A stretch of 64,000 bases of DNA from Nitrospira japonica (GTDB lineage Bacteria > Nitrospirota > Thermodesulfovibrionia > UBA6902): positions 1 to 64,000 of the forward strand of contig DYJL01000011.1 in NCBI GenBank assembly GCA_020723105.1. Reading direction: 5' to 3'. The notes beneath the pieces are model-generated. The model was given only the letters and a program-made list of their open reading frames with translations, had not been told where the DNA came from and did no database searches. Numbering within the stretch: position 1 is the first letter of the stretch; the number at the start of each line of letters is the position of its first letter. A program made the translations under genes and the position numbers. This document shows positions 25,789 to 59,444 of the stretch, piece by piece.

Positions 25789-26325
25789 TTATTTCATTAA
25801 CTCCGCACGTAGTAGACGAAGCTGACCTTTTAAACTGCTGTCATAGATGGTGCTGCCAACCTTTACAATAAACCCGCCGAGAAGAGACGGATCCACCTGG
25901 CTCTCGACATCAACTTCCTTCCGCGTCATTGCCTTGAGAGTAATTCTAAGTCTTTCAGTATAGTTCTTATCCAGCGGCACAGAAGATATCACAACAGCAG
26001 TGGCCTTCTTCTGTCTTTCGTTATATGCATTAATTGAAGCAATAATTGTTTCTTTAATTGCAGCGAGGTGCCCCTGTACAATGATAAGTTTCAAAAACTT
26101 TTCTGTATGAGAAGACAGCTTGAGGACTGGCAACAGCGCACCCAGTGCCCCCTCTTTTTCACCCTCTGAGAAAATCTGGCCTGCAAACAGCAGTTTCAGC
26201 TTCCTGTTTGTATCAATGAGTTGTGAAAAGGCCTTAAGTTCCTCTATCACAACCGGTATCTTTGAGATCTCGACGCTGCCAAGAAGCGCCTTGCTATATT
26301 TTTTTGCGATCTGATTCTTGTTCAA
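25789..26325 (-). CDS. atpH: ATP synthase F1 subunit delta (OSCP)
   Basis: 178 aa. N-terminal helical domain ('QIAKKYSKALLG'), middle 'LIIVQGHLAAIKETIIASINAYNERQKKATAVVISSVPL', and the C-terminal 'QVDPSLLGGFIVKVGSTIYDSSLKGQLRLL' signature of the delta/OSCP family. It links F1 to the peripheral stalk. Its start overlaps the atpF stop by four bases. Confidence 0.97.
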   Translation of the reverse strand: MNKNQIAKKYSKALLGSVEISKIPVVIEELKAFSQLIDTNRKLKLLFAGQIFSEGEKEGALGALLPVLKLSSHTEKFLKLIIVQGHLAAIKETIIASINAYNERQKKATAVVISSVPLDKNYTERLRITLKAMTRKEVDVESQVDPSLLGGFIVKVGSTIYDSSLKGQLRLLRAELMK

Positions 26326-26909
26326 TTTTTTGCCTCGAGTCTTTTTATATAATCATCTATGAGTGCTTCCTGATCTTTCTGCCCGAGTTTCTCCTTTAGC
26401 TGCTTTTCTGCAAGTTCCAGCGCCATCATGGTGGCCTCGGATTTAATATTCTCTTTTGCCTTTTGCAATTCAAATTCTATATTTGACTTTGCCTGTTCCA
26501 GTATCTTTGCTTTTAATCTTTCCCCTTCTGCAATAATTGCTTCCTTTTCTTTCTCACCGGCTTTTCTTGCGGATTCGATTATCTGCCCTATTTCACTATC
26601 TGTGTTCTTAAGACGTTCTCTGACTTCATTGAGCGTCTTTTGTGCAAGCTCTTTTGCCTCGGTGGCTTCTTTAAGTGATTTCTCAATCAGCGCTGTACGG
26701 TTTTTGAAATACTCTGCAAAGGGTTTACGCGCAAAGAAAACAAGAATGAATACGAGAACCGCAAAATTTACAACCGGCCACAACCAGTCTTTCCATGTAA
26801 AGTGTACCTCTCCGTGACCTCCGCCTTCAGCGGCAAAGACGGCAGCAGTGAATAGTGAATAGTGAATAGTGAATAGTAAACAGACTGAAAAATTTTGAAT
26901 TGTTTTCAT
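26322..26909 (-). CDS. atpF: ATP synthase F0 subunit b, with repeat-encoded N-terminal signal
   Basis: 195 aa. The body is a typical b subunit: one membrane helix (WLWPVVNFAVLVFILVFFARKPF, about residues 42-64) then a long charged coiled coil. Unusually, it has an extra N-terminal signal-like segment (MKTIQNFSVCLLF...AAVFA-AEGGGHG) whose middle (TIHYSLFT) is encoded by four GTGAATA heptads in antisense. Some b subunits in related lineages do have a cleavable leader; here part of the leader is repeat DNA. The start codon overlaps the b' stop. Confidence 0.93.
   Translation of the reverse strand: MKTIQNFSVCLLFTIHYSLFTAAVFAAEGGGHGEVHFTWKDWLWPVVNFAVLVFILVFFARKPFAEYFKNRTALIEKSLKEATEAKELAQKTLNEVRERLKNTDSEIGQIIESARKAGEKEKEAIIAEGERLKAKILEQAKSNIEFELQKAKENIKSEATMMALELAEKQLKEKLGQKDQEALIDDYIKRLEAKN
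26848..26881. repeat. Heptad repeat (GTGAATA x4) inside atpF
   Basis: Four perfect GTGAATA units (26848-26875) and a partial one. On the coding strand they read as part of the hydrophobic leader of the b subunit. Confidence 0.92.
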
Positions 26910-27325
26910 ACTCTTACCAGCTTTTCTACAATCTGCTTTGAAAAGGCTTCGACATCAGATCTCAATGAAACCCTTGCCTTTTCCATTGCTGAAACAAGTT
27001 CGTCCTTCGCACTTTTATTTAATCCTGCAGCTTCATTTTGCGCCGTGGTGAGCGCCTGTTTTTGTATCTCCATCCCCTGTTTACTTAATTCTTCAAAAGC
27101 TGTCTTTGCCTTAATCCTGCCTTCTGTCAGCTTTACGTCAATCTGTCCCATTATATCTTCTTTCTCTTTATCCATGGACCTGGCGGAATCAAGAGCGCCG
27201 TTTATGCCAGCGTCTCTTTCCTTGAAAATACGAAGAAGGGGCTTAAATAAAATAATATTCAGAAGAATAAGCAATAAAAGGAAATTGGCAAGCTGGGCAA
27301 AAAACCACTTATTGAGTTCTAACAT
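26906..27325 (-). CDS. ATP synthase F0 subunit b' (second b-type subunit)
   Basis: 139 aa. An N-terminal membrane helix (WFFAQLANFLLLLILLNIILFKPL) is followed by a coiled-coil stalk. Together with the next gene it gives the b/b' heterodimeric peripheral stalk known in photosynthetic bacteria, deltaproteobacteria and others. It is the first gene of the visible operon. The a and c subunit genes are not upstream, so the F0 rotor genes must be elsewhere (split operon). A sigma-70 promoter is placed just before it. Confidence 0.92.
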   Translation of the reverse strand: MLELNKWFFAQLANFLLLLILLNIILFKPLLRIFKERDAGINGALDSARSMDKEKEDIMGQIDVKLTEGRIKAKTAFEELSKQGMEIQKQALTTAQNEAAGLNKSAKDELVSAMEKARVSLRSDVEAFSKQIVEKLVRV

Positions 27326-41293: not shown

Positions 41294-42760
41294 TCATTTT
41301 TCATTTTGAGTCTTCAGGAACTCCTCTCCTGTTTTCCATACATCACCGGCGCCGAGAGTCAACAGGGTATCACCTTCTCTCAGTTCCTGCTTAAGGCGAG
41401 TTAATATCTCTGTACGATCTTTAACGTATTCAACGTCCTTGCCGGTGTTTTTTATCCCTTTCAGTAAATTTTCCGAATTGATTCCCTCCAGCGGCCTTTC
41501 TCCTGCAGGATAGATGTCCATCAGAATTACTTTATCAGCATCTGTGAAGGCATAACAAAATTCATTAAATAAATCGCGCGTCCTTGTAAATCTGTGCGGT
41601 TGAAAAAGGACCACAAGCCTGCCTCCGGCAGTCTGAAGTTTAGAGTTATGAGTTAGGAGTTTAGATTTGTTTTTCTTGACTCTTAACTCTTGACTCTTAA
41701 CTCTTGACTCTTTGCCCTGAATCATGGCTTCCTTCGCCGCTTTCAACGTCGCCATAATCTCTGCAGGATGATGTCCGTAATCATCAATTATTTTAATGCC
41801 TGAAACCATCCCCTTTATCTCAAAACGCCTCTGTACTCCGCTGAAATGCTTCAAGGCCTTTTGAATATCTTCCATATTCATCTCAAGTTCATTGGCAACT
41901 GCAATAGCCGCAAGACAGTTGCATACATTGTGCGCGCCAAAAAGCGGAACCTCGAAATGGCCCAGAGACTTGCCGTTTAAAACGGCCTCAAAAGTTGTAC
42001 GGGAACCATCTGTCTTAATATCTTTTGCAATAAGATCCAGGTGCTCGCTTAATCCGTACGTTATAAATCTCCTCTGAACTTTTGGTAAAAGCTCCTTGAT
42101 GTGTTCATTGTCGCCATACAGAATAGAAAGCCCGTAAAACGGAATTTTATTTATAAATAAAAGAAAGGCGTTTTTTATTTCATCAACAGTTTTGAAAAAA
42201 TCCATATGTTCCCGGTCTATGTTTGTAACAACTGCAATCGTTGGCGAAAGTTTCAAAAAGGAGCCATCGCTTTCGTCTGCCTCAGCGACAAGGAATTCTC
42301 CCTGCCCGAGCCTGGCATTGCTTCCAATGCCTTTCAACTTACCTCCTATTACTACGGTCGGATCAAAGGGGCCTTCGCCAAGAACACTTGCTATCAATGA
42401 AGTTGTCGTTGTCTTTCCATGTGCACCTGCCACCAGCACCGCATATTTCAGTCTTGCAATCTCTGCCAGCATTTCAGCCCTCGGTATGACAGGGACTGAC
42501 AATTTGCGCGCGGCCTCAACTTCCGGATTATAGGAAGACACCGCTGAAGATATAACAACTACGTCCGCATCCTTAACATTCTCCGGTTTATGCCCGATGG
42601 TTATGACTATCCCCTGCCCCCTTAATCGGGCAGTAGTTTCAGATTCTTTCAGGTCCGAGCCTGAGATTTTATAGCCCAGGTTGTTTAGAACCTCGGCAAT
42701 GCCGCTCATGCCAACTCCGCCTATACCTACGAAGTGAATTTTCTCAAATCGTTTATACAT
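41294..42760 (-). CDS. murC: UDP-N-acetylmuramate--L-alanine ligase with repeat-derived insertion
   Basis: 488 aa. N-terminal 'HFVGIGGVGMSGIAEVL', central P-loop 'GAHGKTTTTSLIA', 'AVVTNIDREHMDFF' and C-terminal 'FQPHRFTRTRDLF' are diagnostic. Between 'KAAKEAMIQG' and 'GGRLVVLFQPHR' there are about 30 additional residues rich in K, S, L (KESRVKSQELRVKKNKSKLL...), encoded by paired inverted heptads (41637-41713). The insertion lies between central and C-terminal domains, a plausible tolerant loop. Confidence 0.96.
   Translation of the reverse strand: MYKRFEKIHFVGIGGVGMSGIAEVLNNLGYKISGSDLKESETTARLRGQGIVITIGHKPENVKDADVVVISSAVSSYNPEVEAARKLSVPVIPRAEMLAEIARLKYAVLVAGAHGKTTTTSLIASVLGEGPFDPTVVIGGKLKGIGSNARLGQGEFLVAEADESDGSFLKLSPTIAVVTNIDREHMDFFKTVDEIKNAFLLFINKIPFYGLSILYGDNEHIKELLPKVQRRFITYGLSEHLDLIAKDIKTDGSRTTFEAVLNGKSLGHFEVPLFGAHNVCNCLAAIAVANELEMNMEDIQKALKHFSGVQRRFEIKGMVSGIKIIDDYGHHPAEIMATLKAAKEAMIQGKESRVKSQELRVKKNKSKLLTHNSKLQTAGGRLVVLFQPHRFTRTRDLFNEFCYAFTDADKVILMDIYPAGERPLEGINSENLLKGIKNTGKDVEYVKDRTEILTRLKQELREGDTLLTLGAGDVWKTGEEFLKTQNEK
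41637..41713. repeat. Paired inverted heptad repeat inside murC
   Basis: Left arm GTTTAGAGTTATGAGTTAGG (units like AGAGTTA/TGAGTTA) and right arm of five GACTCTT/AACTCTT units (41678-41713), reverse complementary, about 13 bp apart. It is translated in frame on the minus strand. Confidence 0.92.
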
Positions 42761-42762
42761 AG

Positions 42763-43920
42763 TTAAATCACCTGCTCGTTATGTTTTGTCATTTGTGTTC
42801 TGTTTTCCGTTCTCTGTGCGCTGAATTTTTTTTTAAGGAGTCCCAGCATAAGCTCTATTATCTTCCCGGTCGCTTCAGGATTTCCAAGAGACTTGCTTAT
42901 ACGCTCCATCTGTCCGGCTGCATCAGGATCTTGCAGCAGGTATTTGATAAGGTCTGCAAGCGTTTTTCCGTTTAAATCCTGATCCAGGATCATCTGCGCC
43001 GCCCCGATATCCCATAATTTCCTTGCATTGATCTCCTGGTGATTGCCTGCTGCAAACGGATACGGCACAAGGATTGCCGCCTTCCCGCATGCAGTAAGCT
43101 CAGCAAGGGTGGTTGCCCCGGCCCTTGAAATAACAAGATCTGCCACAGCGTATGCGTCTGCCATTTCATATGCAAACGGGATGACCGTTCCTTTAAATTC
43201 ACGCCTGCGATAGTCCTCCCTTACGGAATCCAGATCCTTGTCACCTGTCTGATGCAGAAACTGGATTTTGTCTTTGAACGGCTCAAGATATGCAAGGGCT
43301 TCACCGACGGCATTGTTAATACGTGTTGCGCCCAGACTGCCTCCAAATATAAATATAGTGAAGAGATTCCCGTCAAGATTAAAAATTCTGCAGCCTTTAT
43401 TCCTGTCTCCTTTCAATATCTCTGATCTCACTGGATTGCCTGTCAGATAAGTCTTTTCCTGCGGAAAAAACTTCATGCTTTCCTGGTATGTCACTGCTAT
43501 TAAATCAACGACTCTCCCAAGAAGTTTGTTTGTAAAACCGGGAAGAGTATTCTGTTCATGAATAATCGTAGGAATACCCATCAGGGCTGCGCACAGTAAT
43601 ACAGGCCCTGAACTATACCCGCCTACCCCCAATACCAGTTCCGGCTGAAGCTCTTTCAATATCTTCTGGGAATCTTTTAATGACAGAGGTATCTTAAGGG
43701 CTGATTTAATAGTCCTGAAGATATCCTTCCCCACCAGTCCTTCAGATTTTATAAATCTTATGTCGTATCCTTCCTTAGGAACTATCTTTGACTCTATTCC
43801 CTTTGTGGTCCCTATAAAAGTAATCTGAACGTCAGCAATGCTCTTTCTTAATTCATTGGCAATAGCAATTGCCGGAAAGACATGCCCTCCTGTACCGCCT
43901 CCTGCTATCACAATATTCAT
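42763..43920 (-). CDS. murG: UDP-N-acetylglucosamine--N-acetylmuramyl-(pentapeptide) pyrophosphoryl-undecaprenol GlcNAc transferase
   Basis: 385 aa, makes lipid II from lipid I. 'AGGGTGGHVFPAIAIA', 'GVGGYSSGPVLLCAALMGIPTIIHEQN', 'FGGSLGATRINN', 'VISRAGATTLAEL' and 'PYPFAAGNHQEINAR' are classic GT28 elements. The C-terminal tail after 'LMLGLLKKKF' (SAQRTENRTQMTKHNEQ) is encoded by a degenerate 7-bp-periodic stretch. Confidence 0.97.
   Translation of the reverse strand: MNIVIAGGGTGGHVFPAIAIANELRKSIADVQITFIGTTKGIESKIVPKEGYDIRFIKSEGLVGKDIFRTIKSALKIPLSLKDSQKILKELQPELVLGVGGYSSGPVLLCAALMGIPTIIHEQNTLPGFTNKLLGRVVDLIAVTYQESMKFFPQEKTYLTGNPVRSEILKGDRNKGCRIFNLDGNLFTIFIFGGSLGATRINNAVGEALAYLEPFKDKIQFLHQTGDKDLDSVREDYRRREFKGTVIPFAYEMADAYAVADLVISRAGATTLAELTACGKAAILVPYPFAAGNHQEINARKLWDIGAAQMILDQDLNGKTLADLIKYLLQDPDAAGQMERISKSLGNPEATGKIIELMLGLLKKKFSAQRTENRTQMTKHNEQVI
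42776..42826. repeat. Degenerate heptad tract encoding the MurG tail
   Basis: Units approximating GTTATGT, TTTGTCA, TTTGTGT, TCTGTTT, TCCGTTC, TCTGTGC in a row. It is more diverged than the other copies and recognised mainly by periodicity. Confidence 0.5.
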
Positions 43921-43935
43921 ATCTGTCCTTTCACC

Positions 43936-45090
43936 TCAATTAACATACGTTCTGTTCTCCGCCATCCTGCCTTTATTATTCCTTGATATATTTATCAATA
44001 TGCCGACTGCAGCCAGATTGATAAGGAGTGATGAACCTCCGTAGCTTATAAAAGGCAGCGGCAGCCCTTTTGTAGGCATGAGTCCTGTTGTTACTGCAAA
44101 GTTGATAATTACCTGAACTCCTATCATCATCGTTAATCCAAGTGTCAGGAAATAGCTGAATGCGTCATTCGTTCTTCCGGCAACCTTAATGCCTTTTATA
44201 CAAAAGTAAAAAAACAGGACCAGTACAAACACCGCACCGATCAGCCCCAGCTCTTCTCCTATCAGTGAAAAAATGAAATCTGTGTGAACCTCCGGAAGGA
44301 AATACAGCTTCTGTTTGCTGCCGCCAAGCCCCAGCCCTGTTAATCCTCCATTGCCAAAGGCAATAAAAGACTGTATAAGCTGAAAGCCGCTGCCGCGGGA
44401 GTCTTTCCATGGATCTGTAAAAGACATGATCCTTTTCATCCTGTACGAAGACGATATAACCAGCAGATAAATGGCCGGTAAAGAAGCCAGAAACATGATG
44501 CCAATATAACGCAATCTTACACCGCCAAGAAGCAAAAGCCCCATTGTAAGAATCCCCAGACTCATTACTGCTCCGAAGTCCGGCTGCAGTATGATAATGC
44601 CCTGAAATAAAACCATGATTAAGATCGGGACCACCATGCCGTAACGGAGGTCCTTCATCCTGTGAAGGTTCTTATCCATATAATCAGCAAGAAATATCAC
44701 CATCACCAGCTTTACGAATTCTGAAGGCTGAAACGTAGTAGGCCAGAGCCTGAGCCAGCGCCTGGCCCCTTTGGCAGCAATTCCAAGACCCGGCACAAAT
44801 ATCAATAACAGCAGTATCAGAGAAATCAATAACATTACATGGACTAACGATATCTGAAATGAGGCGATATGAAACAAGGGCCTTCTCAGGCTCTTATAAT
44901 CCACCCTTGATAATATGACCATAGCTGCAACTCCAACAAAAACAGTAAAGACATGGCTCAGCAAGTAATGAAAACTATTGTTATACTTCTTCATAGACAT
45001 CAGAACTGTAGAACTATACACCATAAGTATGCCAATGCATACGAGGAATGCAACTGAAATAATTAAACCTTTCGTATCGTTAGTGTTCAT
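43936..45090 (-). CDS. ftsW: Lipid II-polymerising glycosyltransferase FtsW (SEDS family)
   Basis: 384 aa with about ten membrane segments. 'WLRLWPTTFQPSEFVKLVMVIFLADYM' and 'QPDFGAVMSLGILTMGLLLLGG' and 'FIFSLIGEELGLIGAV', 'TTGLMPTKGLPLPFISYGGSSLL' are the SEDS signatures, including the catalytic Asp region. It sits between murD and murG, and its start overlaps the murD stop by four bases. Confidence 0.97.
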   Translation of the reverse strand: MNTNDTKGLIISVAFLVCIGILMVYSSTVLMSMKKYNNSFHYLLSHVFTVFVGVAAMVILSRVDYKSLRRPLFHIASFQISLVHVMLLISLILLLLIFVPGLGIAAKGARRWLRLWPTTFQPSEFVKLVMVIFLADYMDKNLHRMKDLRYGMVVPILIMVLFQGIIILQPDFGAVMSLGILTMGLLLLGGVRLRYIGIMFLASLPAIYLLVISSSYRMKRIMSFTDPWKDSRGSGFQLIQSFIAFGNGGLTGLGLGGSKQKLYFLPEVHTDFIFSLIGEELGLIGAVFVLVLFFYFCIKGIKVAGRTNDAFSYFLTLGLTMMIGVQVIINFAVTTGLMPTKGLPLPFISYGGSSLLINLAAVGILINISRNNKGRMAENRTYVN

Positions 45091-46619
45091 AGTTTTGAGT
45101 TTTGAATTAATTTTACTGCTTCTTTAAATTTTCTCCCTCTGTCTTCAAAATCCTGAAACATATCAAAGCTCGCACAGCCGGGTGACAACATTACCACATC
45201 GCCCTCAGAAGCCTTTGACAGGGATAATTCAACGGCTGATACGATGCTGTCAGTCATGAATATTTCTGTCACATCTCCCAGTGCCTTTACAATTTTATCC
45301 TTGGCCTTGCCAAGAAGGACCAGAGCTTTAACTTTTTGCCGGACCAAATCCTTGAGAACAGAGAAATCGCTCCCTTTATCCAGTCCGCCCATAATTAATA
45401 CCACATTATTGAAACCTTCCAGAGATTTTGCAACAGCGCCAACATTTGTACCCTTTGAGTCATTGATGAATTTGACTCCCCTGATCTCGCTGACAAACTC
45501 CAGCCTGTGTTCAAGCCCGGGAAATTCTTCAAGCACCTTCCTGACAGCATCAAATGAACACCCTGCAAGCAAGGCAATCAATGAAGCAGCCATTGCGTTC
45601 TCGATATTGTGCACGCCCTGAATTTTTATCTCATTCTGAGATATAAGTGGGAAGTGAGAAGTGGGAAGTGAGAGATGAGATAAATTACAATAAATTATTT
45701 CATCTTTCAAATAGATTCCCTCTACTTCTCTCCTGCGGCTGAAATAAAAGATATCAGGCTTTTCACTTCTAACTTCTAACTTCTCACTTCTCACTTCCAT
45801 TACCAAGGGGTCATCTGCATTGAGAACCAGGAAATCCCCGGAGGCCTGGTTTTCAAAAATCCTCGCTTTAGCATCAACATATTCCTGTATGTTCTCATAC
45901 CGGTCCAGGTGATCTGGTGTAATATTCAGAAGGGCCGCAATCCTGGGCCTGAATTCTTTTATTGTTTCAAGCTGAAAACTTGAGATCTCTGTGACAATGT
46001 AATCAGGCAAGGAGTGAGGGGTGATGCGTGACGGGTCTTTTTCTTTACTAATCCCTAATCCCTGGTCACTAATCCCTGCTTTTAATATTTCTTCCGTCAA
46101 AGCGATACCGATATTGCCGCCAAGTAAAGTATTAAATCCTCCCTCTGTCAGCATCAGATCCACAAGTGTCGTTGTTGTCGATTTGCCATTGGTACCTGTG
46201 ATGCCTATAAAAGAGGGAGTAGGGGGTAGGGGGTAGGGGGTTAGTGAACTGATATTAGCTTTGTCTTTTTTTATTGATCCCTGACCCCTAATCCCTAATC
46301 CCTGTATTATCTGGTATGCAAGCTCAAGTTCGCCGATCACAGGGATGCCTTTTATCTTCGCACGTTCAAGAGGAGGAATATTGAGCGGCACCCCGGGGCT
46401 TATCACAATCAAATCTGCTGTATCAAAAATTTCCTGCGGATTCCCATCCGTTATTACTTTTACAGACGGTAATAGTTTTTTAATATTAGCTTCAAGCATG
46501 TTGCTTGGTTTACTATCCGTAATTATCACCTTCGCCCCTAATTCAGACAGGAGATTTGCCGAGCCTGTTCCGCTTCTTGCAAGCCCTACAACGACAATGT
46601 TCTTATCTCTGAATGTCAT
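45087..46619 (-). CDS. murD: UDP-N-acetylmuramoyl-L-alanine--D-glutamate ligase with three repeat-derived insertions
   Basis: About 510 aa against a usual 440-460. N-terminal 'NIVVVGLARSGTGSANLL', P-loop 'GITGTNGKSTTTTLVDLML', 'EISSFQLETIKEFRPRIAALLNITPDHLDRYENI' and C-terminal 'LSPGCASFDMFQDFEDRGRKFKEAV' are intact. Three segments are extra: before the P-loop (IRGQGSIKKDKANISSLTPY), before 'DYIVTEISSF' (SDQGLGISKEKDPSRITPHS), and after 'DPLVMEV' (RSEKLEVRSEKPDIFYF to SHLSLPTSHFPLISQ). Each coincides with paired inverted heptads. ATG 46619 is preferred over ATG 46643, since MurD proteins begin close to the Rossmann loop. Confidence 0.97.
   Translation of the reverse strand: MTFRDKNIVVVGLARSGTGSANLLSELGAKVIITDSKPSNMLEANIKKLLPSVKVITDGNPQEIFDTADLIVISPGVPLNIPPLERAKIKGIPVIGELELAYQIIQGLGIRGQGSIKKDKANISSLTPYPLPPTPSFIGITGTNGKSTTTTLVDLMLTEGGFNTLLGGNIGIALTEEILKAGISDQGLGISKEKDPSRITPHSLPDYIVTEISSFQLETIKEFRPRIAALLNITPDHLDRYENIQEYVDAKARIFENQASGDFLVLNADDPLVMEVRSEKLEVRSEKPDIFYFSRRREVEGIYLKDEIIYCNLSHLSLPTSHFPLISQNEIKIQGVHNIENAMAASLIALLAGCSFDAVRKVLEEFPGLEHRLEFVSEIRGVKFINDSKGTNVGAVAKSLEGFNNVVLIMGGLDKGSDFSVLKDLVRQKVKALVLLGKAKDKIVKALGDVTEIFMTDSIVSAVELSLSKASEGDVVMLSPGCASFDMFQDFEDRGRKFKEAVKLIQNSKL
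45645..45799. repeat. Paired inverted heptad repeat, third insertion in murD
   Basis: Left arm of AAGTGGG/AAGTGAG units (45645-45677) and right arm of ACTTCTA/ACTTCTC units (45763-45799), reverse complementary, separated by about 85 bp that are also translated. Confidence 0.93.
46011..46079. repeat. Paired inverted heptad repeat, second insertion in murD
   Basis: Left arm GGAGTGAGGGGTGATGCGTG and right arm CTAATCCCTAATCCCTGGTC, ACTAATCCC. In frame on the minus strand. Confidence 0.85.
46213..46304. repeat. Paired inverted heptad repeat, first insertion in murD
   Basis: Left arm with three GGGGTAG-type units (46213-46245), spacer of about 35 bp, right arm CCCTGACCCCTAATCCCTAA then TCCCTG (46278-46304). 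In frame, just before the P-loop codons. Confidence 0.92.
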
Positions 46620-46658
46620 TTTCTTTTCTTCCACGAGTATCATTATATAATTAGTTCA

Positions 46659-46711
46659 TCCGGGCGAGGCGCCGCCTCGCCCCTACCCTAATCCCTACCC
46701 CCCTAAACCCT
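46659..46711. repeat. Palindrome plus heptads between mraY and murD
   Basis: GGGCGAGGCG / CGCCTCGCCC hairpin ending in CCTAC, directly followed by CCTAATCCCTACCCCCCTAA heptads. Combines both repeat families in one spacer. Confidence 0.8.
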
Positions 46712-46717
46712 TTCTTC

Positions 46718-55426: not shown

Positions 55427-57859
55427 ATGTTGAGAAAAGTTTCGAAAGAAGAGCTCTATAACTGTTGTGAACCATCTGAATTGCCGTTTAAAACAACAGA
55501 TGAAATCTCTCCATTAAGAGAAACCATCGGACAAAAAAGAGCACTCAGTGCTCTCCAATTTGGACTTGGCATCGACAGCCATGGATTTAATATTTATATT
55601 CTCGGTGAAAGCGGCACCGGTAAGATGACCACTATCAAAACAATTCTGGAAGAGAAAGCAAAAAACGAATCTGTACCAAATGACTGGTGTTACGTTTACA
55701 ACTTTAAAAATCCTGATGCCCCCTGCGCCCTCAGCCTGCCTCCTGGAACAGGGCTTGCCTTCCAGAAAGATATGAACGAACTTATTGCAGTTCTGCGTCA
55801 GGAGATACCCAAGATATTTAATTCGAAGGAATATGAAAAACAGCGTTCTAAAATACTTGAGGATTTCCAGCAAAAACAAAAAAAATATTTTACTGATCTT
55901 GAGGAAGAGGCAAAAGAAAAAGATTTTACACTGAGAAAAACCGTCAGCGGCCTGGTGCTGGTCCCTGTAAAAACAACGGGCGAAACTTTGAGTGAGGAAG
56001 AATATGAAGCCCTTGAGCCGAAGGTAAAAAGGAAAATAGAAACCATAGGGAAACAACTGCAGGACAAACTTGATGATGTAATAAGAATAGTAAGAGAGGA
56101 AGAGAAAAAGATTAAGGACATGATGACACAACTCGAACGTCAGGCCACTCTCTCCTCCGTCGGACACCGGATTGATGAACTCAAAACTAAGTATAAAGAT
56201 AATATCAATGCCTTAAATTACCTGGAAGAAGTAAAGGAAGATATCCTTGAACATCTCGATGATTTCAAGCCTCAAGAGGAGCAGTCGCCGGCTCTGCCAT
56301 TCATGAAACATTCGAAATCAGAGCCTTCATTTGTAAGATACAATGTAAACGTCCTCGTAAATAATCGTGAATTGAAAGGCGCACCAGTTGTAATAGAAAG
56401 CAACCCGACTTATTACAATCTCTTTGGAAGGGTTGAGCATAAATTGCAGTATGGGATTGCTCTTACTGATTTCACTATGATAAAAACAGGCTCTCTTCAA
56501 ATGGCAAATGGCGGCTATCTGGTTATTGATGCGCTTGAACTTTTAAAGAATATTTTTTCCTATGACTCTCTTAAAAGAACTATCAAAGAGAAATTAATAA
56601 AAATAGAGGATGTCTGGGAACAGTACCGTTTAATTTCCACCGTAACCCTGAAGCCTGAGGCTATACCTTTTAATGTAAAAGTCATACTGATTGGCAATCC
56701 ACGTCTTTACTATCTTCTTTACAATCTCGACGAAGAATACAGAGAATTGTTTAAAGTTAAGGCGGACTATGAAAACCGCATGGACCGAAACAGTGAGAAT
56801 ATGCTCAAGTATGCCAGTTTTATTAAAACAAAATGTGACGAAAGAGGCCTGCTGCCTTTTGAGAAAAAAGCGGTTGCAAAAATTATTGAATATGGCTCCA
56901 GACTTGCCGAACATCAACAAAAACTCTCTGGCAAGTTCAGCGAGATAGCGGATATCCTGAGAGAGTCTGATTACTGGGCACGATCCAATAAAAACCGCCT
57001 TATTACGGCTGATGATATTGAAAAGGCTCTCGAAGAAAAAACCTACCGCTCCAACAAAGTGGAACAAAAAATTCTGGAGGCAACAAAGGAAGGCTCTATT
57101 CTTATTGATACCGAAGGGGCTGTAGCGGGCCAGATTAATGGCCTCTCTGTGCTGGACCTGGGAGACTACAGATTCGGTATGCCTTCGAGGATTACGGCCA
57201 AGAGTTATGCCGGCAGAGCAGGTATTGTCAATATTGAAAGAGAAACCAAGATGAGCGGGAAAATTCATGAAAAGGCTATATTGATATTGACTGCTTACCT
57301 CGGCGGGAAATATGCTGTAAAACAATCTCTCAGCCTTACTGCGTCTCTTACATTTGAACAACTGTATGGCGGAATTGAAGGCGACAGCGCCACATGTGCA
57401 GAAGTATATGCACTTCTGAGCAGCATATCAGGAGTTCCTTTAAAACAATGTTATGCGATAACAGGTTCCATGAATCAGCATGGGGAAGTTCAGCCCATCG
57501 GTGGAGTGAATGAAAAAATAGAAGGTTTTCTTGAGGTCTGCAAACTCAGTGGACTTAATGGTGAACACGGCGTTATTATTCCAAAACGGAATTTAATGAA
57601 CCTGATGTTGAAAAAAGACGTGATTGATGCTGTTACAAAGGGAAGATTTAATATCTACGCCATTGACAATGTGGAAGACGGAATTGAAGTCCTCACAGGA
57701 ATGCTCCCGGGAGAATTGCAGCCGGATGGGACTTATCCGGATGAAACATTCAACTTTATGGTTATGAAGAAACTAAAGGAATTATCCGAAGCGCTAAAGG
57801 CCGAAAAGGGGGCAGAGATACAGGATGAGAAAAAAAAGGAAGTGAACAACAATAAATAA
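55427..57859 (+). CDS. Lon-family ATP-dependent protease (LonB/LonC-like)
   Basis: 810 aa. AAA+ domain with early Walker A GESGTGKMTT (60-69), then a long helical insertion (about 150-290, highly charged coiled coil), the rest of the ATPase core and a C-terminal Lon proteolytic domain with the Ser-Lys dyad Ser654 (EGDSATCAEV) and Lys697 (GGVNEKIEGF), 43 residues apart as in Lon. No N-terminal LAN substrate domain. It belongs to the group often annotated 'Lon protease family protein/AAA family ATPase', found beside typical Lon in many bacteria. GGGAGG precedes ATG 55427. The 163-bp gap before it holds nothing notable. Confidence 0.93.
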   Translation: MLRKVSKEELYNCCEPSELPFKTTDEISPLRETIGQKRALSALQFGLGIDSHGFNIYILGESGTGKMTTIKTILEEKAKNESVPNDWCYVYNFKNPDAPCALSLPPGTGLAFQKDMNELIAVLRQEIPKIFNSKEYEKQRSKILEDFQQKQKKYFTDLEEEAKEKDFTLRKTVSGLVLVPVKTTGETLSEEEYEALEPKVKRKIETIGKQLQDKLDDVIRIVREEEKKIKDMMTQLERQATLSSVGHRIDELKTKYKDNINALNYLEEVKEDILEHLDDFKPQEEQSPALPFMKHSKSEPSFVRYNVNVLVNNRELKGAPVVIESNPTYYNLFGRVEHKLQYGIALTDFTMIKTGSLQMANGGYLVIDALELLKNIFSYDSLKRTIKEKLIKIEDVWEQYRLISTVTLKPEAIPFNVKVILIGNPRLYYLLYNLDEEYRELFKVKADYENRMDRNSENMLKYASFIKTKCDERGLLPFEKKAVAKIIEYGSRLAEHQQKLSGKFSEIADILRESDYWARSNKNRLITADDIEKALEEKTYRSNKVEQKILEATKEGSILIDTEGAVAGQINGLSVLDLGDYRFGMPSRITAKSYAGRAGIVNIERETKMSGKIHEKAILILTAYLGGKYAVKQSLSLTASLTFEQLYGGIEGDSATCAEVYALLSSISGVPLKQCYAITGSMNQHGEVQPIGGVNEKIEGFLEVCKLSGLNGEHGVIIPKRNLMNLMLKKDVIDAVTKGRFNIYAIDNVEDGIEVLTGMLPGELQPDGTYPDETFNFMVMKKLKELSEALKAEKGAEIQDEKKKEVNNNK

Positions 57860-59444
57860 TAAGAAAAAAATTCTCATCCGTGGGGTAAACTGGATCGGCG
57901 ATGCCGTTATTACAGTTCCATCTATCAGAACAGTACGCCGCGCCTATCCTGATGCTCACATAAGCCTGCTTGTTAAACCCTGGGTTTCAGATATCTTTAA
58001 AGAAAATCCTGACATCAATGAAATCATCCTCTACGATGAGAGTTATAAAGGTCTTGCAGGAAAACTGAAAGTTGCCCAAAAACTCCGGGAGCGGAAATTT
58101 GATATCGCAATACTCCTTCAGAATGCCTTTGACGCTGCACTGCTTGCATGGCTTGCTGGAATTCCTGAAAGAATTGGATACAGCAAAGACGAACGCGGAT
58201 TCCTTCTAACTAAAGCGATCCCTGTAGAAAAAGGGCCTGTCTCTCAGCATCAAGTCTTTTATTATCTTAATCTGCTCAATGCGATCGGTATTAAAACGGA
58301 AGAAACACAACCTTACCTCTATCTCTTGGATGAAGAAAGACAGTGGGCAAGAAACATTGTAAGGGCGATTCATGAATCGCCCCTACACCAACCCCAAACC
58401 CCTAACCCCCAACCCCTTATCGGCATTAATCCCGGTGCAACATATGGTTCGGCCAAGAGATGGCCGCCCGAAAGATTTGCTGATCTGATATCCAGAGTAA
58501 TAGAGGAACTTAATGGAAACGTAATTATATTTGGAAGTACTGCTGAAATAGATATAGTGAAAGAAATAATATGGAAACTTGAAACATGGAACTTGGAATT
58601 TGGAACTAAGATACTTAACATGGCTGGCAAAACCAACCTCCGGGAACTTGCATCACTAATTGCTGAATGTGATGCATTTATAACTAATGATTCAGGACCA
58701 ATGCACATGGCTTCTGCATTGCTGGTTCCGGTTATTGCAATATTCGGCTCAACAAACAAAAAAACAACCGGCCCTTTTGGCGAAGGCCATAAGATTGTTA
58801 CAAAAGATCTGCCATGCGCCCCCTGCATGAAGAGAGAATGCCCTGAAGGGCATCTTAAATGCATGACAGCAATTGCTGCAGATGACGTATTTGCCGCATT
58901 GAAAGATGTGCTTCCTGAAGAGAGAGCTGTCTTTCTTGACAGAGACGGAACAATAATAGAAGACAAAAACTATCTGAACAGCTTTGCCAATCTTGTTGTT
59001 TTCCCCAACGCAAAGGAAGAATTGCAAAAATTAAAAGATGCAGGTTTTCAACTCATCGGTGTCACAAACCAATCCGGCATTGCAAGAGGGATCATTGATG
59101 AACAGTTTGTGATTGATTTAAATGCCTACCTGCAAAAAGAACTGGGGATAGATGCTTTTTACTACTGTCCGCATCATCCTGACAACAATTGTCCGTGCAG
59201 AAAACCAGAGCCTATGATGCCATTAATGGCAAGACTTAAGTACAAGATAAATTTAAAATCCTCTTACGTAATCGGGGATAAGGAGTTGGATGTCCAGCTT
59301 GCTAAAAAAATCAACGCCACCGGCATCTTGCTGTCAGCAACCATTTCTCCTGAAAATACAATTGCTTCTTATGTTGCTAAAGACTTAACAGATGCAGTTC
59401 GGTGGATATTAGAGAGGGAAGTAATAGCGGCCTCAGGCATATGA
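57852..59444 (+). CDS. Fused heptosyltransferase II (WaaF) and D,D-heptose 1,7-bisphosphate phosphatase (GmhB), apparent ATA start
   Basis: The frame opens after a TGA at 57843-57845 and stays open for 530 codons, but has no ATG, GTG or TTG until codon 159 (TTG 58326). The GT9 heptosyltransferase sequence is already complete from ILIRGVNWIGDAVITVPSIR at 57870, so the start must be earlier. The best candidate is ATA 57852 (reads NNKKKILIRG), nine bases after AAAGGAAG; ATT 57870 is less likely. Residues 1-355: WaaF with 'GINPGATYGSAKRWPPERFA', 'TNDSGPMHMASAL' and 'TTGPFG'. Residues 360-530: HAD phosphatase with FLDRDGT, 'VTNQSGIARG' and zinc loop 'CPHHPDNNCPC'. Both serve LPS core heptose. Two heptad inserts lie in the WaaF part. 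A sequencing error at the start is possible. Confidence 0.85.
   Translation: MNNKKKILIRGVNWIGDAVITVPSIRTVRRAYPDAHISLLVKPWVSDIFKENPDINEIILYDESYKGLAGKLKVAQKLRERKFDIAILLQNAFDAALLAWLAGIPERIGYSKDERGFLLTKAIPVEKGPVSQHQVFYYLNLLNAIGIKTEETQPYLYLLDEERQWARNIVRAIHESPLHQPQTPNPQPLIGINPGATYGSAKRWPPERFADLISRVIEELNGNVIIFGSTAEIDIVKEIIWKLETWNLEFGTKILNMAGKTNLRELASLIAECDAFITNDSGPMHMASALLVPVIAIFGSTNKKTTGPFGEGHKIVTKDLPCAPCMKRECPEGHLKCMTAIAADDVFAALKDVLPEERAVFLDRDGTIIEDKNYLNSFANLVVFPNAKEELQKLKDAGFQLIGVTNQSGIARGIIDEQFVIDLNAYLQKELGIDAFYYCPHHPDNNCPCRKPEPMMPLMARLKYKINLKSSYVIGDKELDVQLAKKINATGILLSATISPENTIASYVAKDLTDAVRWILEREVIAASGI
58359..58417 (+). repeat. Palindrome plus heptads inside the WaaF-coding part
   Basis: AGGGCGATTCA / TGAATCGCCCCT palindrome (58362-58384), nearly identical to the one after atpC, followed by CCAACCC, CAAACCC, CTAACCC, CCAACCC-type heptads (58387-58417). 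Translated as RAIHESPLHQPQTPNPQP. Confidence 0.9.
58571..58610 (+). repeat. Second heptad tract inside the WaaF-coding part
   Basis: Units TGGAAAC, TTGAAAC, ATGGAAC, TTGGAAT, TTGGAAC in a row, translated as WKLETWNLEFGT. Confidence 0.85.

Follow-up and report, generated by a model that had tools for sequence, protein, structure and literature searches.

How does the gene of an essential enzyme come to hold tandem repeats of seven nucleotides? Unless units are gained or lost in multiples of three, the reading frame shifts, so heptamers should be costly in essential genes. The question arises at murD in the window, by which we mean the whole 64,000 nucleotides of DNA analysed here. Judged by its nearest named relatives, the host is a Thermodesulfovibrionia-type MAG of the Nitrospirota, from a group of uncultured groundwater bacteria. 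Its assembly comprises 3.13 Mb in 94 contigs.

We propose that the murD inserts are near-neutral loops, retained for a long time and translated. In them would sit inverted-repeat elements built of heptamers. The units of these elements would turn over while selection maintains the frame and acts against stops. We give this explanation a probability of a little over 0.7.

A long MurD with four inserts

The identity of the gene is clear. Its product matches the TIGR01087 murD profile with 393.8 bits, above the equivalog cutoff of 211.95, and contains the three Mur ligase domains of Pfam (MurD-like_N, Mur_ligase_M and Mur_ligase_C). We predicted its structure with AlphaFold2 from an alignment of 36 relatives (mean pLDDT 84). 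In Foldseek the predicted fold matches the solved MurDs 7ti7 (TMt 0.88) and 4uag (TMt 0.86).

Among solved MurDs, 3lk7 has 451 aa, and those of E. coli and others span about 437-459 aa. Hence the window MurD is about 67-80 aa longer than is typical, close to the 60-80 residues estimated in a preliminary description of this DNA. That description also held that the catalytic motifs are intact. We find the P-loop, SSFQLE, DHLDR, HNIEN, HR, NDSKGTN and SPGCASFDMF all present, and across the alignment of 36 sequences most motif residues vary little or not at all. The extra length is not wholly due to repeats: long loops are also found in relatives that lack heptamers, and those of deep relatives are short. 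Loop length correlates only weakly with heptamer density (rho 0.32), so some of the additional residues may have an origin other than repeats.

Four segments of murD are coded by repeats, and every one of them is a heptanucleotide array. R denotes a purine- or G-rich array and Y a pyrimidine-rich one.

45087..46643, reverse strand: murD, one open frame of 518 aa (ORF, Pfam, TIGR01087, Foldseek)
46215..46307, reverse strand: insert 1, residues about 113-143, before the P-loop; lag-7 R array 46275-46303, A-rich spacer, lag-7 Y array 46214-46241
46005..46076, reverse strand: insert 2, residues about 190-213, before DYIVTEISSF (sequence and family alignment); R array about 46048-46078, A-rich spacer, weak Y array about 46010-46034
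45759..45797, reverse strand: insert 3, EVRSEKLEVRSEK, residues 283-295, after DPLVMEV; R array (lag 7, 45765-45797)
45681..45758, reverse strand: PDIFYFSRRREVEGIYLKDEIIYCNL, 26 largely conserved MurD codons between inserts 3 and 4, residues 296-321 (alignment)
45645..45680, reverse strand: insert 4, SHLSLPTSHFPL, residues about 322-333; Y array (lag 7)

The preliminary description placed three insertions before the P-loop, before DYIVTEISSF and after DPLVMEV. These three are where it put them. The count was too low: a fourth segment, SHLSLPTSHFPL, lies within the span that it covered and goes unmentioned in its wording.

In the AlphaFold2 model, pLDDT falls below 50 at residues 117-137 (insert 1), 194-209 (insert 2) and 327-329 (insert 4), although low confidence at the inserts partly reflects sparse alignment columns. 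Inserts 1, 2 and 4 are thus predicted to be low-confidence loops in an otherwise confident model. Insert 3 instead prolongs a predicted helix (279-288). Mapping the inserts on a structure, as had been suggested, thus places three of them in predicted loops, while insert 3 does not lie strictly between secondary elements in the model.

The arrays are defined by their period

Tandem Repeats Finder reports period 7 or 14 for the murD repeats. Counting by lag across the window gives 10 arrays for lag 7, whereas lags 2-6, 8-11 and 13 give zero. The heptamer arrays of murD are far beyond chance. The preference extends beyond the window: in 459 kb of this genome (including about 395 kb from other stretches) lag 7 yields 38 arrays, and any lag of 4-6 or 8-13 yields at most three. 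Same-family relatives have 56 lag-7 arrays in 229 kb, with at most two at nearby lags. Distant genomes that carry MurD have three lag-7 arrays in 378 kb.

The units themselves vary widely, with 34 canonical units among 47 arrays. Hence the common feature is the period and not the sequence. Arrays are no purer between genes (0.914) than within genes (0.919), and we reject the idea that they would be. Our sample is biased to murD loci; within it, 71.5% of arrays lie under long ORFs compared to 79.7% of sequence, and strong depletion from genes was sought and not found. Neither was a strand bias of R against Y arrays in genes (64:54).

Heptanucleotide repeats are known from other bacteria. Examples are the cyanobacterial STRR, GGGAATC/GGGGAYT of Xanthomonas and Nostoc (PMC4692102) and the TAACTGA heptamer of Beggiatoaceae (PMC4679880). 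Heptamers have been cited as the most abundant class of longer SSRs, and a proposal cited in the same paper invokes a 7-nt preference related to the polymerase (PMC4679880). The arrays described here resemble these SSRs in that tandem 7-nt units, enriched over other periods, occur in few copies and are dispersed throughout the genome. They differ in three ways: this genome has many units instead of one or a few defined ones, arrays lie in frame in conserved housekeeping enzymes, and they form inverted R/Y pairs. In contrast, the heptamers of Xanthomonas and Nostoc are under-represented in coding DNA (PMC4692102), and the arrays of Beggiatoaceae are mostly found in hypothetical proteins (PMC4679880).

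A parallel to the pairing comes from Geobacter metallireducens, where elements of four heptanucleotides occur between genes and within them, sometimes more than once per gene, and where other tandem-repeat sites form opposite-strand pairs at variable distance (PMC2700814). Heptamers in and between genes, as well as pairing, are shared with our arrays. However, the G. metallireducens elements have one consensus per class and were read as regulatory (PMC2700814), while units vary freely in our genome and the arrays have only period and pairing in common. We found no report of 7-bp repeats in Nitrospirae in the open-licence literature.

Arrays in the dcw cluster and in other genes

A survey of the dcw cluster in 22 genomes shows that murD is its array hotspot, with 42 arrays in 15 of the 22 murD orthologues. 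Arrays also occur in murE (12), murF (8), murC (6), ddl (6), murB (4) and murG (2), and none in ftsZ, ftsA, ftsW, mraY, ftsI or rsmH. Gene names other than murC and murD were read from gene order and sequence. The arrays are concentrated in enzymes that tolerate loops. The number of arrays in murD increases with the number of flanking heptamers (rho 0.68, n=50).

In-frame arrays are found in murD and at least ten other genes. Among the latter are the following (labels that start with L or C are our own handles for stretches, genomes and contigs):

L121:103-4284, reverse strand: purL, three arrays
L121:5203-6447: mqnE
L121:6451-7572: mqnC
L121:18653-19660: hemC
L124:1-1203: cobB
L125:8123-10465, reverse strand: nrdJ
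L137:14121-17231, reverse strand: addA-like gene
window 41297-42778, reverse strand: murC

Two gene fusions carry arrays as well. A fusion of TIGR03960 and TIGR03936 (L125:11867-14416) has an array at its linker (587-597), and a waaF-gmhB fusion (window 57846-59441) has arrays within the WaaF part. Such cases may bear on how neighbouring genes joined.

Heptamer arrays also make up N-termini. Those of LolA (L133:14857-15579, reverse strand), FlgA (L139:13704-14411, forward strand), FlgI (L139:15215-16390, forward strand) and a TolB-like protein (L127:13020-14300, forward strand) resemble signal peptides; that of ATP synthase subunit b (window 26325-26954, reverse strand) is made of arrays too. 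For LolA, FlgA and FlgI, the R arm codes for a K/R/S-rich n-region and the Y arm for a hydrophobic h-region.

Arrays come in complementary pairs

Arrays are arranged in a recurrent design. A purine- or G-rich heptamer array is followed by an A/T-rich spacer and then by a pyrimidine-rich array with approximately reverse-complement units. Neighbouring arrays of opposite type stand in R-to-Y order in 30 of 33 pairs (three are Y-to-R; binomial p 1.4e-6). The order does not depend on strand and persists when murD is left out (18:2, p 4e-4).

The two arms of an element match each other better than they match the arms of other elements. Across 27 elements, the duplex of an element's own arms has -24.3 kcal/mol compared to -13.7±1.5 kcal/mol for permuted arms (p 2e-4). 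Inserts 1 and 2 of murD are complete elements, each with an R array, an A-rich spacer and a Y array. Inserts 3 and 4 appear to be the first and second arm of a single inverted repeat, split by about 26 conserved codons. In the 21 genomes with arrays at both sites, arms from the same genome pair at -34.5 compared to -27.3±1.7 (p 2e-4), and the matched unit types differ between relatives. Hence the arms co-vary beyond chance in permutation tests that ignore shared ancestry, and at clade level there are only about three matched unit types. Some genomes, for example L093 and L017, have mismatched arms.

One explanation for the pairing is selection. Paired arms could be kept as functional hairpins of the mRNA (or of single-stranded DNA), for example to pause translation between domains or to tune mRNA stability, so that complementarity is selected instead of being made by mutation. 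Insert 1 does form a hairpin of -32.3 kcal/mol (z -3.06 against shuffles), inserts 3 and 4 form a long-range stem of -39 kcal/mol (z -2.69), and complementarity persists while the amino acid content changes. However, insert 2 has no significant hairpin when its folding is compared with shuffles. Many relatives have lost, replaced or mismatched an arm, and the core tree implies 10-14 changes of state at each site. Furthermore, elements of the same design occur in many unrelated genes and between genes. We consider functional hairpins quite improbable as the reason for the pairing.

More probably, the mutation process itself produces the match. Inverted repeats within coding sequence whose arms are homogenised and stay complementary are known from Nematomorpha mtDNA (PMC6649704) and from yeast genes (PMC8604942). 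Template switching has been documented for coding inverted repeats (PMC8604942) and for RNA stems (PMC8794818). The murD elements resemble these cases in being inverted repeats in protein genes that keep their arms complementary. The arms in Nematomorpha code for conserved residues (PMC6649704), whereas in murD heptamers make up the arms, which lie in variable loops. For murD we infer that slippage homogenises the arrays and that template switching by fold-back homogenises the arms.

Units differ at shared sites

At the four murD sites, relatives carry other heptamers, such as GGGGCAA, GTGAACA, GAGTTAT and GGCAATA. Some relatives carry GTAG-type palindromes (GTAGGGGCG...CGCCCCTAC) there. These palindromes lie in frame at sites 1, 2 or 4 (for example in L011, L015 and L016). 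The peptides coded by them include GAGLKPAPT and GAIHESPLQ. A tree of the core alone implies 10-14 state changes per site.

One reading of these differences is that every array arrived anew: a transposase would have moved a mobile REP- or MITE-like repeat into these few loops, which tolerate it. The GTAG palindromes clearly took the same murD sites in relatives, and close relatives can have different units at one site (the window and L011, for example). This genome also contains two Y1 tyrosine transposases of REP type, 311 and 322 aa long (C83:203-532, L149; C69:32028-32357, L150). It has GTAGGGGCG-core-CGCCCCTAC palindromes with variable cores and seven exact copies (contigs C35, C48, C63, C79 and C94), which are REP-like. 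Just upstream of murD, at 46662-46712, a GC palindrome abuts Y heptamers, which shows that one site can hold a palindrome together with a heptamer array. Related repeats are described in the literature. Rickettsia palindromic elements (RPE) and intragenic GTAG/CGTC REPs are short hairpin-forming repeats that lie in frame in genes for conserved proteins, and at roughly one position of recB, X. campestris and X. oryzae each have a REP of their own kind (PMC3733652).

The murD arrays share with RPE and REPs the in-frame insertion into genes for conserved proteins and the different repeats at one site. In contrast to these sequence families (PMC3733652), they are tandem heptamers whose units and spacers differ between sites and genomes, and the GTAG tag is absent from the murD inserts of the window. 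The term 'nitrospir' does not occur in that paper (PMC3733652). Heptamer arrays were sought in the flanks of the REP-type Y1 transposases and not found, and neither conserved element ends nor a target duplication were identified.

The history of site 2 also argues against fresh insertion. Between the window and genomes of two other families, its length is equal and its phase is kept. The spacer is identical at 18 of 18 or 17 of 18 nt, while the R arms agree at 18 and 21 of 29 nt and the Y arms at 16 and 19 of 27 nt. We read the site-2 element as old, with its unit replaced in place. As read from the sequences, the two arms are both AGTAAC-type in L101 and both AGTGA-type in L109. Repeated fresh insertion thus seems rather unlikely to us, and the preliminary picture, three insertions in a row of repeats, falls short. 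The arrays number four, inserts 3 and 4 appear to act as one inverted repeat, and we take the site-2 element to be old.

The inserts are probably translated

Across 38 genomes, the four loops contain no in-frame stop in 3,759 codons, compared to 271 and 299 stops in the other two frames. The zero is partly by construction, because reading ended at stops, and its real content is that full-length murDs are open to the end of the alignment. Two apparent exceptions, L101 and L059, came from a reading that started upstream of the start codon; from within the gene they yield 533 and 465 aa. Between two sister genomes, insert 1 differs by exactly 21 nt, that is, three units. A given frame is open in only 22% of cases for arrays between genes; where an array lies in a gene, the figure for the other frames is 49%. 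This is expected, since a 7-nt repeat runs through each of the three frames.

Because the loops are open in frame and carry stops out of frame, we argue that the inserts are translated. The inserts could alternatively be removed from the product, as introns or by another RNA process, by translational bypassing, or by protein splicing of the intein type. Bypassed segments can form stable hairpins, and insert 1 as well as inserts 3 and 4 together do so. However, inserts that are removed need not stay in frame and free of stops, and these do in every genome. The inserted sequence is not conserved either. A search of murD against Rfam gave no intron or RNA family at threshold (the two stems gave only weak, generic hairpin matches), and Pfam and NCBIfam scans of its product gave no splicing domain. 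Excision at the RNA or protein level is unlikely, and we leave very little probability to it. The inserts are probably translated and not removed.

Repeats are hard to assemble and the genome is a MAG, which could suggest an artefact of assembly or binning. The same sites are repeat-bearing, and always in frame, in independently assembled MAGs from several studies, and the murD repeats lie on the 105.6 kb contig of the window. There is next to no chance that an artefact explains them.

The preliminary description regarded repeated neutral insertion selected for frame as the simplest view. Near-neutral loops that are kept in frame remain the best-supported explanation, given the absence of in-frame stops and the low-confidence loops predicted for inserts 1, 2 and 4.

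A proposed route from repeats to protein loops

The explanation we favour can be set out as a sequence of steps. The murD inserts would belong to a genome-wide class of short R-spacer-Y elements. They would occupy surface loops of MurD that tolerate a change in length, and would be transcribed and translated within MurD into disordered loops or, for insert 3, into a longer helix. The essential enzyme would then act as a filter. Total length has to stay a multiple of three, pure changes in unit number have to come three units (21 nt) at a time, and any unit that would create a stop has to be a variant. Within this filter the arrays may drift. Slippage or unequal exchange would be the most likely way in which the units of an array become alike, and fold-back template switching the most likely way for the two inverted arms. 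As a result, the unit type would change within an element whose position, phase and spacer are constant.

Repeats of heptamers are known already, as are REPs and RPEs that lie in frame. Paired, co-varying heptamer arrays in conserved enzymes are apparently new, as we found no report of them in the open-licence literature. A broader claim is possible but doubtful: paired heptamer arrays might be a distinct class of bacterial elements with a generating process of their own. In this Nitrospirota group they might be a standing source of new protein segments, both for loops of Mur ligases and other enzymes and for Sec-type signal peptides, with the R arm as positive n-region and the Y arm as hydrophobic h-region, and with arms that stay complementary over family-level divergence.

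Seven-base repeats have been a noted but unexplained feature of bacterial genomes. Here heptamers persist at fixed sites of an essential enzyme across families and appear to change their unit in place, and two heptamer arms stay complementary around conserved MurD codons. Persistence, in-place change and pairing make the origin, spread and homogenisation of such arrays testable by comparative sequencing. They would also provide a concrete route by which repeats turn into protein loops, and possibly into signal peptides.
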